Positions 2,062 to 29,356 of a stretch of 33,576 nucleotides of DNA are shown here, one piece after another. Made by a program: the position numbers and the translations under genes. Position 1 is the stretch's first letter, and the number at the start of each line of letters is the position of its first letter. The DNA lies in assembly GCA_005878095.1 (NCBI GenBank), contig VBNH01000071.1:1-33576 (forward strand), read 5' to 3'. The DNA comes from Gammaproteobacteria bacterium. GTDB taxonomy: Bacteria; Pseudomonadota; Gammaproteobacteria; Steroidobacterales; Steroidobacteraceae. The notes beneath the pieces are model-generated. The model was not told the DNA's origin. It made no database searches and saw nothing but the letters and a program-made list of their open reading frames with translations.

Positions 2062-2080
2062 AATGGCGCGCCATTATAAT
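2062..2080 (+). promoter_or_regulatory. Palindrome plus consensus -10 (TATAAT) at the lptD start
   Basis: A 14-bp perfect palindrome, AATGGCGCGCCATT (2062-2075), runs straight into a consensus TATAAT (2075-2080). The hexamer overlaps the first possible lptD ATG (2079) and lies 10 bases before the second (2091). A second inverted repeat, GCCCT-CGC-AGGGC, sits at 2042-2054. No -35 of good quality lies at 16-18 bp. The gap also serves divergent amgK. Confidence 0.45.
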
Positions 2081-4520
2081 GCTGCTCTTCATGCCGCGTT
2101 CGAGCGCATTCTGGATCGTGATCGTCGTCTCGCTTGGCGGCATGTTGCCGGCGGCCCGGGCCGAGGACCCTCCCTGTCCGACGCAAGTCGCTGCCGCGGG
2201 TGCGCCGACCTCTGCCGCGGGTGCGCCGACCTCTGCCGCGGGTGCGCCGACCTCTGCCGCGGGTGCGCCGACCTCTGCCGCGGGCGCGCCGACCTCTGCC
2301 GCGGGCGCGCCGACCTCTGCCGCGGGCGCGCCGCCGACCGCGAAGCCGTTGCCGGGCGAAGGCAACATCTACGTCGCCAGTGACCGGGCGACACTCGGCG
2401 TCGATGGCAACGCGACGCTCAAGGGCAACGTGGTCGTGCGCCACGGCGAGCGCGAGATCCGCGCCAACGAGCTTGAATACGACGCGCATAACACCTCGGT
2501 GCACACCGCGGGCCACATCGACTACAGCGACCCCCTCGTGCGTGTAACGGGTGCGGGCGGCAGCTACTCGGCGGCGGCCGGCGCCGAGTTCAAGTCGGCC
2601 GAGTTCGCTCTGCGCCAGCGTGCCGCACGCGGCGCCGCGCAGGACATGACGCTCACGCCCCAGGGCGTGATTCGACTGCGGGCAGTCATGTTCACGACCT
2701 GTCCGGCGCAGGATAGCTCCTGGCAGCTGAAGGCCGACAGCATCATGCTCGACACACGCAACCGGCTCGGCGCCGGCACCGATGCGCAGATCCGCTTCAT
2801 GGGCGTGCCGCTGATCTACCTGCCGTGGGTGTCGTTTCCGCTGGGCAACGAGCGCAAGAGCGGCTTTCTGTTTCCGGGCATCGGCAACACCTCCTACGGG
2901 GGGCTGCAGCTGTCGGTGCCGTACTACTGGAACATCGCGCCCAACGCCGACTTCACCTTCCAGCCCGTCGACTACAGCCGCAGCGGGCCCGATCTGGGCG
3001 GCGACCTGCGCTTTCTCACGCAGCACCAGCGCGGCGAGGTGGACTGGAACTATCTGCCCTACGACGGCGCCTTCCACGGCAGCCGCAGCCGTGTGCGGCT
3101 GTCCGACGTGGCCGAGCTGCCGGATGACTTCCGCCTGAGCGTGAAAGCGGAGAACGTCAGCGATCCGTTCTACTTCGAAGACTTCTCCCAGGGACCCGAA
3201 GGCACCAGCACCGCCTTCATCGAGCGGCGCGCCGCGCTCTCGTACCGCGGCGAGCACTGGAGCGTCGATGGCGAAGCACAGCAATACCAGACCATCGACT
3301 ACACGCTGGCGGTGAACGATCGCCCCTACGCGCGTGTGCCGCACATTGCGGTGAGCGCCGACTACGGCCTGGGTCCGGCCGGACGGCTGCGCTACGGTTT
3401 CGATTCCGAGCTGGTCGACTTCCAGCGCCCGGCCGGCGCCACCGGGGTCACCGGCTGGCGGGCGGATGTCATGCCGGGGGTTCTGCTGGACCTCACCGGC
3501 CCGGGATATTTCCTGCGCCCCGCGCTCGCCTGGCGCGCGACCGGCTACCAGCTCGACAACACCCCCCCGGGTGAACCGCGCTCGCCGTCGCGGACGCTGC
3601 CGATCGCGAGCTTCGACGCCGGCCTGGTGTTCGAGCGCGACAGCGGCTCGCGCAAGCAGCGCAAGCTGACGCTCGAGCCACGCATCCAGTACCTCGACGT
3701 CCCCTATCGCAACCAGGACCAGCTGCCGGTGTTCGACAGCGCGCTTCCGGACCTCAATCCCGTGGAGCTGTTTCGCACCAACCGCTATGTCGGCGCCGAC
3801 CGCGTCGGCGATGCCAACCAGGTGAGTGCCGGGCTCACCAGCCGGCTGCTGGATGCGCACAACGGCCGCCAGTTCCTGGCCGCCACCTTCGGGCAGTCCT
3901 ACCACTTCGAGACCCCGCGGGTGATCCTGCCCGGGGAAGCTCCGGCGAGCGGCAAGCACTCGGATTTCGTGGCGCAGCTTGCCCTGACGGCCTTTCAGGA
4001 CTGGAGCGCGGACGCCGGGGTGCAATGGGATCCGCAGAATGAGCGCAGCGAACGCACCACGGTCAATCTGCAGTACAAGGCCGCCAGCGATGCCGTGCTC
4101 AACCTCGCCTACCGCTACAAGCGCTTCGTACTGGTGCAGCAGCTGGTGCAGGGGGTCGCGCAGCCGTTCCAGCAGGGGTTCGACCAGGTGGAGTTCTCGG
4201 CGGCCTGGCCTATCCGGCGCCAGTGGAACGTGTTCACGCGGGACGTCTACTCGCTGCGCGATCACACCCCACTGGAGCGCTTCGCCGGCTTCGAGTACCG
4301 TGCGTGCTGCTGGCGGGTGAGGCTCGGCGCACGCCGGTTCGTGAACAGTCACGACCCAACCGCCAGCCAGGAGACCGGCGTCTGGCTGCAGCTGGAACTT
4401 GCCGGTCTCGCCAGTGTCGGATCGGCGTCGGACGCCTCCCTCACCGAGGCGATCCGGGGATACACGCCTCCCGAAACGATACCTTCGAAGAGTCAGGGCC
4501 CGCTGAAGGGCACCTGGTAG
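2079..4520 (+). CDS. lptD: LPS-assembly outer membrane protein LptD
   Basis: LptD forms, with LptE, the outer-membrane translocon that inserts lipopolysaccharide into the outer leaflet. Numbered from the ATG at 2079 the protein is 813 residues, near the usual length. A signal peptide (hydrophobic FWIVIVVSLGG, ending PAARA) is followed by a proline- and alanine-rich repeat tract, an OstA/LptA-like domain (NIYVASDRATLGVDGNATLKG onward), then a long beta-barrel. The four cysteines of the LptD disulfides are present: near 33, near 208 (TTCPAQ) and the adjacent pair near 743-744 (RACCWR). The reading frame stays open upstream to 1941, but the signal peptide argues against that start. An ATG at 2091 is an equally good start, because a TATAAT overlaps the ATG at 2079. 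It heads the lptD-surA-pdxA-rsmA block. Confidence 0.95.
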   Translation: MLLFMPRSSAFWIVIVVSLGGMLPAARAEDPPCPTQVAAAGAPTSAAGAPTSAAGAPTSAAGAPTSAAGAPTSAAGAPTSAAGAPPTAKPLPGEGNIYVASDRATLGVDGNATLKGNVVVRHGEREIRANELEYDAHNTSVHTAGHIDYSDPLVRVTGAGGSYSAAAGAEFKSAEFALRQRAARGAAQDMTLTPQGVIRLRAVMFTTCPAQDSSWQLKADSIMLDTRNRLGAGTDAQIRFMGVPLIYLPWVSFPLGNERKSGFLFPGIGNTSYGGLQLSVPYYWNIAPNADFTFQPVDYSRSGPDLGGDLRFLTQHQRGEVDWNYLPYDGAFHGSRSRVRLSDVAELPDDFRLSVKAENVSDPFYFEDFSQGPEGTSTAFIERRAALSYRGEHWSVDGEAQQYQTIDYTLAVNDRPYARVPHIAVSADYGLGPAGRLRYGFDSELVDFQRPAGATGVTGWRADVMPGVLLDLTGPGYFLRPALAWRATGYQLDNTPPGEPRSPSRTLPIASFDAGLVFERDSGSRKQRKLTLEPRIQYLDVPYRNQDQLPVFDSALPDLNPVELFRTNRYVGADRVGDANQVSAGLTSRLLDAHNGRQFLAATFGQSYHFETPRVILPGEAPASGKHSDFVAQLALTAFQDWSADAGVQWDPQNERSERTTVNLQYKAASDAVLNLAYRYKRFVLVQQLVQGVAQPFQQGFDQVEFSAAWPIRRQWNVFTRDVYSLRDHTPLERFAGFEYRACCWRVRLGARRFVNSHDPTASQETGVWLQLELAGLASVGSASDASLTEAIRGYTPPETIPSKSQGPLKGTW
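2193..2318 (+). repeat. Six 21-bp in-frame tandem repeats in lptD (AAGAPTS heptapeptide)
   Basis: Six consecutive 21-bp units encode the heptapeptide AAGAPTS, followed by a partial seventh unit to about 2333 that breaks into APPTAKP. Units 1-4 carry GGT for glycine and units 5-7 carry GGC; otherwise the six full units are identical. The unit length is a multiple of three, so changes in copy number would keep the frame. The tract lies between the first LptD cysteine and the OstA-like domain. Confidence 0.95.
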
Positions 4521-4535
4521 AGGAACGGCAATCAC

Positions 4536-5942
4536 ATGCAGCGGATGTTGACTTCAGCCCTGATGCAGCTCGCGGTGATCGCGGCGGCCCTCACTCTGCA
4601 GCAGGCGGCGCAGGCGCAAACCCGCGAGCTGGCCACCAAGGGTGAACTGCTCGACCGCGTGGCGGCCATCGTCAATGACGGCGTCGTGCTCAACAGCGAG
4701 CTCGACGCGCAGGTGGAGGCCGTGAGTGGGCGGCTGCGCCAGCAGAAGCTCGAGCTGCCGCCGCAGAACGTCCTGCGCCAGCAGGTGCTCGAGCGCCTGG
4801 TACTGCAGGAAATCCAGATGCAGCGCGCCAATCGCGCCGGCGTCAAGGTGTCGGACGAGACCGTGAACGCAGCGCTCGTGGACGTGGCGAAGCGCAACGG
4901 CCTGACGCTCTCGCAGCTGCCCGACGCCCTCGCCAAGCAGGGCGAAGACTACGCCTCCTACCGCGATGACCTGCGCAAGGAAATCACGCTGTCGCTGCTG
5001 CGCCAGCGGGATGTGCTGCAGCACATCAGCGTCACGCCACGCGAGATCGATCAGTTTCTCGAGAAGCAGGCCAAGACCCCTTCCGAGCGCAAAGAGTACA
5101 ACGTGTCTCACATCCTGATCGCCGTGGCCCAGGAAGCGAGCCCCGCGCAGCTCGAGCAGGCCGCCAAGCGCGCCGCGGACGTTTATCAGCGCGCCAAGGG
5201 CGGCGAGGATTTCGCCAAGCTCGCGGTAGCCTATTCGAACAGCCAGACCGCCCTCGAGGGCGGCGCGCTGGGCTGGCGCAAGGGCGGCGAGCTGCTCGCC
5301 AAGCTCGCGGTAGCCTATTCGAACAGCCAGACCGCCCTCGAGGGCGGCGCGCTGGGCTGGCGCAAGGGCGGCGAGCTGCCCACGTTCCTCAGCGACGTGA
5401 TCGCCGCACTCAAGCCGGGCGAGGTGAGCGAGCCGCTGCGCACCCCGACCGGGTACCACATTATCCGGCTGAATGAGGTGCGCGGCGCCACCGAGAAGGC
5501 GGTGGAGGATCAGATCCACGTGCGACACATCCTCATGAAGACCACCGAGCTCGCCGACGATGCGACCGTGCGGCTAAAGCTCACGGCGCTGCGCGAGCGG
5601 ATTCTCAAGGGCGAGGACTTCGCCGGCCTCGCCCAGACCACTTCCCAGGACCCGGGATCCGCCGCCGAGGGCGGTGACCTGGGTTGGGCGGGGCCGGGAA
5701 CCTTCGCCCCGGAGTTCGAGCAGGCGATCGCCGGTCTGAAGGACAACGAGATCAGCGAGCCGTTCCACACGCAGTTTGGCTGGCATATCGCGCAGGTGCT
5801 CGGGCACCGCCGCTTCGACAACACCGACGAGCTCAAGCGCCGGCAGGCCATGGAAGCAATCCGCGCCGGCAAGGCGGACGAGGAGACGGAGCTGTGGCTG
5901 CGCCGCATGCGCGATGAGGCGTTCGTCGAGTTCAAGTCATAG
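4536..5942 (+). CDS. surA: Periplasmic chaperone and peptidyl-prolyl isomerase SurA with a duplicated segment
   Basis: SurA escorts unfolded outer-membrane proteins, LptD among them, across the periplasm. The protein has 468 residues, about 40 more than the E. coli precursor. A signal peptide (residues 1-28, ending QAAQAQ) precedes the chaperone domain starting RVAAIVNDGVVLNSEL. Two parvulin domains follow: P1 from about 188 (EYNVSHILIAV) to 312, and P2 from about 327 (IHVRHILMK) to 430, then a short C-terminal helix. Inside P1 a 28-residue stretch, 226-253, is repeated exactly at 254-281, explaining most of the extra length. The start has a purine-rich site (AGAGGA) 11 bases upstream and follows lptD by 15 bases. 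Identification is secure; whether P1 still folds is open. Confidence 0.96.
   Translation: MQRMLTSALMQLAVIAAALTLQQAAQAQTRELATKGELLDRVAAIVNDGVVLNSELDAQVEAVSGRLRQQKLELPPQNVLRQQVLERLVLQEIQMQRANRAGVKVSDETVNAALVDVAKRNGLTLSQLPDALAKQGEDYASYRDDLRKEITLSLLRQRDVLQHISVTPREIDQFLEKQAKTPSERKEYNVSHILIAVAQEASPAQLEQAAKRAADVYQRAKGGEDFAKLAVAYSNSQTALEGGALGWRKGGELLAKLAVAYSNSQTALEGGALGWRKGGELPTFLSDVIAALKPGEVSEPLRTPTGYHIIRLNEVRGATEKAVEDQIHVRHILMKTTELADDATVRLKLTALRERILKGEDFAGLAQTTSQDPGSAAEGGDLGWAGPGTFAPEFEQAIAGLKDNEISEPFHTQFGWHIAQVLGHRRFDNTDELKRRQAMEAIRAGKADEETELWLRRMRDEAFVEFKS
5212..5379 (+). repeat. Perfect 84-bp tandem duplication within surA
   Basis: Bases 5212-5295 and 5296-5379 are identical over all 84 positions, with divergence immediately outside. 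The duplication is in frame and repeats 28 residues covering the second helix and the following GGALGW turn of the first parvulin domain. Absence of any silent difference implies a recent event or an assembly error. Confidence 0.97.
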
Positions 5943-16307: not shown

Positions 16308-16331
16308 GTGAATCGTGCGCCGCTGCGCTGC

Positions 16332-16847
16332 TCAGCGGCGGCGGCTGCGTCGCCCCTGGCTCCTCGACCGCGGCGCGCGCGGCGGCGGCCACAGCATGCT
16401 GCCGCGGCAGCCCTGAACGCCGCAGCGGCACGCGAAGATGGCGTCGATGTCGGGCGGGTCGTCCGCTTCGCGCTTGATCTGGTAATCGTAAGTGAGCTCC
16501 TCGCCCGGCTCGATGGTGCGGATCGCGTCGATGTACACGCGCTGATTCTCGATCACCGACTCGCAGTTCGGCTCGCACGAATGGTTGACGAAGCGCGCCT
16601 CGTTGCCATCGACACCGGCGTCGATCACGGTGCGCTCATCGACGATGAACAGGAAGGTGTGGTTATCGCCTGCGTCCTTGTGAACGTAACGGCGATCCGC
16701 CTCGGCGTGTGAAACGCGCTCGCCCCGGTACTCGATGACGCGCGTGCCGCGCGGGATGCGCCGCGCGGCGAATACACCCAGGCCGTGCAGCGGCGAAGCG
16801 CGCACCTCGATCAGTGGCGCCTGAGCGCCGGTGACCGACGCGCTCAC
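16332..16847 (-). CDS. SET-domain protein lysine methyltransferase homologue
   Basis: The 171-residue protein is essentially one SET domain. The SAM-binding start is [18 protein letters not shown] (residues 18-35), followed by the pseudoknot motif [11 protein letters not shown] (86-95), the catalytic ELTYDY (117-122), and a post-SET cysteine cluster CRCGVQGC (140-147). The tail is rich in arginine, serine and proline. SET proteins transfer methyl groups to lysines; the substrate here is unknown, ribosomal or nucleoid proteins being possible. The frame is open upstream, but the GTG at 16847 overlaps the thyA stop (GTGTGA) and gives a normal SET start, so I chose it. Confidence 0.88.
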
Positions 16848-21835: not shown

Positions 21836-21868
21836 GCCGGGCCGAGGTGCCGGGCCGGGCGGCGCGCC

Positions 21869-22609
21869 ATGTGCTACCGTGCACGGGCCGTGGCCGTGCC
21901 ATCGCGGGAAAACATCCGCCTCTACGAGCTGGTGCTGGAGAATGGAATCTCCGCCAGCCCCTATGTGTGGCGCACGCGTTTCGCTCTGGCGCACAAGGGC
22001 CTGGCCTGCCAGCCCGTGCCGCTTGGTTTTACCGAGATTGCTGCGGCATTTTCCGGTGAGCTGAGGACCGTTCCCGTCATCGAGGATGGGGAGGAGCGCG
22101 TTGGCGATAGCTGGCACATCGCCGATTATCTGGAGCGCAGGTACCCGGCCCGCCCGGCCCTGTTCTCCGGGTCCGCGGAGTACGCCATGGTGCGCCTCTT
22201 CGATGCGTGGTTTTCCGCGGAAATCCTGCGGCGAATGTTCAGGATCTACGTGCTGGACATCCACAACGCCGCACGCCCCGCCGACCGCCCCTACTTCCGC
22301 AAGAGCCGTGAGGCGCGGCTGAACGGTACCAGCCTGGAAGCCTCTGTCGCCGATCGGGTATCGAGGCTCCCGGAATTGCGCGACGCCCTGAATCCGCTGC
22401 GCGCACACCTCGAGCGTGGCCCGTTCCTGGGCGGTGCATCGCCCAACTATGCGGACTACCTCGCGCTCGGCGCGTTTCGGTGGGTGGCCAGCGTCAGCAC
22501 GATCCCGCCGCTGGCGCAGGGCGACCCGCTGCTCGCATGGCTGGAGCGGGGATTCGACCTCTACGGCGGCCTCGCGCGGGACGCGCGACTCAAGCCGCTG
22601 GCGCAATGA
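21869..22609 (+). CDS. Glutathione S-transferase family protein, LigE beta-etherase-like
   Basis: The 246-residue frame is a two-domain glutathione transferase. The N-terminal domain contains LYELVLENGISASPYVWRTRFALAHKG, then VPVIEDG, and DSWHIADYLERRYPARPALF. The C-terminal half has PNYADYLAL and RWVASVSTIPPLAQGDPLLAWLERGFDLYGGLAR. As I recall them, these segments track sphingomonad LigE, a glutathione-dependent beta-aryl etherase acting on lignin-derived dimers, better than they track common bacterial GSTs. Substrate remains unknown and no lignin genes lie nearby. The start is uncertain: alignment with LigE favours GTG at 21896, while ATG at 21869 gives nine extra residues. It follows the DUF255 gene by 33 bases and converges on putA. 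Confidence 0.85.
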   Translation: MCYRARAVAVPSRENIRLYELVLENGISASPYVWRTRFALAHKGLACQPVPLGFTEIAAAFSGELRTVPVIEDGEERVGDSWHIADYLERRYPARPALFSGSAEYAMVRLFDAWFSAEILRRMFRIYVLDIHNAARPADRPYFRKSREARLNGTSLEASVADRVSRLPELRDALNPLRAHLERGPFLGGASPNYADYLALGAFRWVASVSTIPPLAQGDPLLAWLERGFDLYGGLARDARLKPLAQ

Positions 22610-22663
22610 GCCGGCGCCCCGGGGCGACCTGCCCGGCCACCGTCGCCGCCACAATCCGGCCGG

Positions 22664-29292: not shown

Positions 29293-29356
29293 TCTATCAG
29301 GCAGCGCGTCTATCAGGCAGCGCGTCTATCAGGCAGCGCGTCTATCAGGCAGCGCG
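29293..29356. repeat. Four perfect 16-bp tandem repeats
   Basis: The unit TCTATCAGGCAGCGCG occurs four times without a mismatch. The array fills nearly the whole gap between the beta-propeller stop (29360) and the ribosome site of the M28 peptidase, both read on the minus strand. Because 16 is not a multiple of three and the repeats are non-coding, copy number can change without harming a protein. Confidence 0.97.

Follow-up and report, generated by a model that had tools for sequence, protein, structure and literature searches.

A heptapeptide repeat array in the predicted flexible linker of LptD from a member of the Steroidobacteraceae

We describe a tandem array of six 21-bp units, each encoding AAGAPTS, near the 5' end of lptD in a 33,576-nucleotide stretch of contig VBNH01000071.1 (the window), from a soil bacterium. 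The array is most probably (about 75%) a young in-frame coding minisatellite that grew by slippage or unequal recombination in a length-tolerant, predicted-disordered tether of LptD, and it is probably near-neutral. The segment between the first cysteine and the jellyroll of LptD would thus be one whose length can expand fast while this essential protein stays in frame. Should unit number vary among strains, these natural variants would probe the permissible slack of the tether; otherwise, the array is a clean case of ordinary linker repeat growth.

The host gene lies at 2079..4520 on the plus strand and encodes 813 residues. Profile matches above cut-offs were obtained for both the LptD barrel domain (PF04453, E 9.3e-93) and the LptA-like N-terminal domain (PF03968, E 1.9e-7). 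When the modelled protein was searched with Foldseek, the best 38 matches were all LptD structures, and the fold matched the solved LptDE complex 8h1s at 29% identity. A signal peptide with cleavage after ...AARA (2079..2162, plus strand) was predicted from the sequence by eye. It is followed on the same strand by the first cysteine codon (precursor residue 33, 2175..2177), whose cysteine aligns in relatives G063, G062, and others. The OstA-like jellyroll (PF03968, residues 99–227) spans 2373..2759, and the second conserved cysteine (mature C180, precursor C208; 2700..2702) occupies an invariant alignment column. The C-terminal Cys-Cys pair (mature 715–716, precursor 743–744; 4305..4310) sits in an ACCW motif, and C716 is nearly invariant in the alignment. 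C33, C208, and the adjacent cysteines 743–744 form the four-cysteine layout of LptD. On this sequence evidence, the protein is LptD, with a predicted role in LPS export together with LptE and LptA.

The array occupies 2193..2318 on the plus strand, with units starting at 2193, 2214, 2235, 2256, 2277, and 2298. All six translate to AAGAPTS, as originally predicted, and a seventh, degenerate unit (AAGAPPT, 2319..2339) that had been overlooked follows directly. The glycine codon is GGT in units 1–4 and GGC in units 5–7, in line with the earlier claim. The placement of the array between the first-cysteine codon and the OstA-like domain, which begins at residue 99, was also borne out. Tandem Repeats Finder (TRF) reported 2191–2333 with period 21, 6.8 copies, 99% matches, and a score of 265. 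When the sequence was compared with itself at an offset of 21, the sole mismatch ahead of the degenerate end was the T-to-C step at position 2264. The units therefore differ at one synonymous site only, in two blocks, and this pattern supports the proposed stepwise copying of units.

The array is real, as no shuffled control approaches its score. Dinucleotide shuffling of the window (30 replicates) gave a score of 69 at best, and codon shuffling of LptD residues 1–110 (2000 replicates) gave 77. Its tandem units are a multiple of 3 bp, score 265 against a control maximum of 77, and leave the frame intact, as expected of a coding minisatellite. In the 3.43 Mb genome, 18 bases of the unit had six perfect matches, all inside the lptD array. 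Allowing up to 2 mismatches gave 33 matches versus 22 for a backwards control; 2-mismatch matches outside the array were scattered, and no second array of the unit was found in the genome. A mobile or dispersed repeat was ruled out, since the unit builds no other array genome-wide.

We compared the linker across 58 genomes of the same genus, including the window's own. LptD was found in 56 of them, and its N-terminus was readable in 55; G022 and G034 gave no match, and the match in G079 begins at residue 288. The array was present in one of these 55 proteins and in none of the other 54, whose best TRF score was 68 versus 265, although nearly all of them carry Ala/Pro-rich linkers at the same site. 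The insert is thus lineage-specific, a point raised earlier as a check, and, because a single LptD of 55 has it, relatives do not share an identical repeat number, the outcome named beforehand as speaking against the prediction. The nearest relative, G063, is about 95% identical to the window at the nucleotide level and 91% identical in LptD; in this stretch it is the same sequence as L054 (VBMV01000048.1, titled MAG). At the array site, G063 reads PTQV-V-PAGAPPA-AAGAAPE-AKPL, with two degenerate heptads between flanks that match those of the window, PTQV-A-(AAGAPTS)x6-AAGAPPT-AKPL. The cysteine-to-jellyroll distance is 63 residues in the window and 28 in G063, a difference of 35 residues or exactly five heptads. 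Five heptads were therefore gained in the window lineage or else lost in its sister, and gain is favored because the window units are near-identical at the DNA level. Copy number is accordingly unequal between related genomes (seven versus two degenerate units), in a species-level comparison with one genome per species.

The next relative, G062, has an Ala/Pro linker of 39 residues that is arranged differently. The distance from the first cysteine to the jellyroll ranges from 25 to 47 residues in the 31 genus members besides the window that were judged by eye to have a mature first cysteine; by the same judgment this cysteine is absent from 22 of the 55, with G080 ambiguous. A strong requirement on the tether is therefore unlikely, and the array site is, from these alignments, tolerant rather than special. 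Sequences lacking the mature first cysteine include L013, L014, L017–L019, L021, L023, L026–L031, L034, and L164, among others. Where the other cysteines of such genus members were read, the second was kept, as was the C-terminal pair when not cut.

AlphaFold2 modeling of mature LptD with 49 homologues gave a mean pLDDT of 85.6. The original prediction of a flexible linker is supported by pLDDT values below 50 over mature residues 6–62, which fit disorder without proving it; the first jellyroll strand was modeled at pLDDT 69. In E. coli LptD, the N-terminal cysteines are described as bonding to the C-terminal cysteine pair (PMC4353691). The pairs are given in one place of that paper as C31–C727 and C173–C726 and in another C173–C727 is called essential, so the statements differ. 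LptA is reported to bind LptD only once a native disulfide has formed (PMC3944529). In LptD from the gonococcus, cryo-EM does not show the first 63 residues, which are described as likely flexible, and the N-terminus of the structure is without a disulfide bond (PMC8983717). By homology, the array would lengthen the tether between the first-cysteine bond and the jellyroll. The originally proposed effect of the linker on how the periplasmic domain meets LptA is hypothetical.

Our favored explanation starts from an ancestor that, judging mainly from the one sister G063, would have had roughly two units. Slippage during replication, or unequal recombination of one 21-bp unit with another, would then have multiplied one heptad. 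The lengthened linker would serve as a slack tether from the cysteine, which by homology with E. coli would bond to the barrel, to the jellyroll, where LPS arrives from LptA. The extra length would be tolerated and near-neutral, and unit number probably drifts among strains. This is ordinary repeat growth and no new system; its place in LptD is new within the literature searched. No published repeat, linker, or N-terminal extension of LptD matching this one was found in the open literature searched (titles and abstract starts).

The closest known analogues are the repeat tracts of TolA and PilQ. In E. coli tolA, too, the repeats keep the frame and lie in a segment that connects parts of an envelope protein, with copies that vary between genomes. 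TolA repeats are Lys/Ala-rich and lie in a long helical domain, whereas the LptD array lies in a linker without predicted structure. TolA was reported with 8 to 16 copies across 234 isolates and with phenotypes for repeat-number variants (PMC3477136), whereas the LptD array is known from one genome. The small basic repeats of neisserial PilQ are likewise of low complexity and lie between domains, on the periplasmic side of a transport protein of the outer membrane. A six-residue duplication in P. aeruginosa LptD reportedly sits inside the periplasmic domain. This tandem duplication is drug-linked, accompanying lowered murepavadin susceptibility (PMC11659217), and it differs in this and in its length from the window array, which has no drug context.

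The gene next to lptD, surA, encodes a periplasmic chaperone (4536..5942, plus strand) with SurA_N and Rotamase domains. Two exact 84-bp copies, 28 residues each, lie in its first parvulin domain (5212..5379, plus strand), as detected by TRF and by comparisons that place the duplication in this genome alone. Neither G063 nor any other SurA locus checked (144 altogether, some of them duplicates or cut) has it. AlphaFold2 gave SurA a low-confidence stretch around the duplication (mature residues 214–239), with the remainder mostly confident. For SurA, no published duplication in the first parvulin (P1) domain was found in the open literature searched.

Selection could also have produced the array, if a longer tether alters how readily disulfides rearrange or LptA docks; the array might then be a contingency tract of tunable length. 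The dependence of LptA docking on a native disulfide (PMC3944529), the altered stress tolerance of E. coli tolA repeat-number variants (PMC3477136), and the private duplication in adjoining surA point that way, but linker length and sequence vary throughout the genus and 22 of 55 members lack the cysteine by eye, and we consider such tuning unlikely. A stronger version, in which LptD and SurA changed together, with tether expansion and the 28-residue duplication as linked adjustments of the LPS exporter and the tether as a tunable length module, appears very unlikely. That the heptads are ancient and were lost in relatives is scarcely credible: G063 retains two degenerate ones, but the near-perfect DNA identity of the units points to recent copying and the 54 other readable LptDs of the genus all score 68 or less.

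The unit number could also be miscounted, or the expansion false, through assembly. The genome is in 191 contigs, the titled same-genus records are MAGs, and the identical tract measures 94 bp, from a self-match of 73 bases at offset 21. Short k-mers are reported to fail in resolving such repeat tracts (PMC6868369). Three perfect arrays in 33.6 kb also exceed the prediction from the genome sample (lambda 0.43, P(≥3) 0.01, post hoc). However, the GGT and GGC units are ordered rather than clones of one unit, the reading frame is intact, and collapse, named as the usual error (PMC6868369), would make six an undercount. An artifact is quite improbable. The young, near-neutral minisatellite thus remains our preferred reading.

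Beyond the genus, 155 loci, some N-terminally incomplete, yielded 134 distinct LptD N-termini, of which one besides the window had a TRF score above 100. This is L079, from a distant gammaproteobacterium, whose array at about 2620–2880 has 42-bp units (score 205) encoding a 14-residue Pro/Glu/Val/Ala/Lys repeat. Unlike the window array, it lies upstream of the first cysteine; repeat growth around the first cysteine of LptD therefore took place at least twice, at different places.

Just past the array, LptD residues 96–155 share only 63% amino acid identity between the window and G063. Residues 116–155 are 89% identical at the nucleotide level to G015 versus 78% to G063, and residues 336–455 are 97% identical to G063 versus 86% to G015. 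The start of the jellyroll (2367–2543, residues 97–155) is thus a mosaic partly nearer G015 than G063, and the barrel is nearest G063. This pattern suggests recombination at the N-terminal end of lptD and a mixed history there. The array comparison is unaffected, as its flanks align to G063 on either side.

Almost all of the window aligns collinearly with G063, in blocks of 92 to 97% identity; stretches 21836–22623 and 16308–16750 have no good match in this otherwise collinear region. A noncoding perfect array of four 16-bp units lies between two minus-strand genes (29293–29356); like the surA duplication it is private to the window, and G063 has one partial copy only. Tandem-repeat density per 100 kb was 14.2 in 618 kb of the genome outside the window, 8.6 in G063, and 12.8 in G002; for near-perfect arrays, the corresponding values were 1.29, 0.59, and 1.02, with 8.93 in the window. 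Genome-wide repeat richness was considered as the cause and set aside; the outside density is above that of G063 and close to that of G002, and the excess in the window is a post hoc figure based on three arrays.
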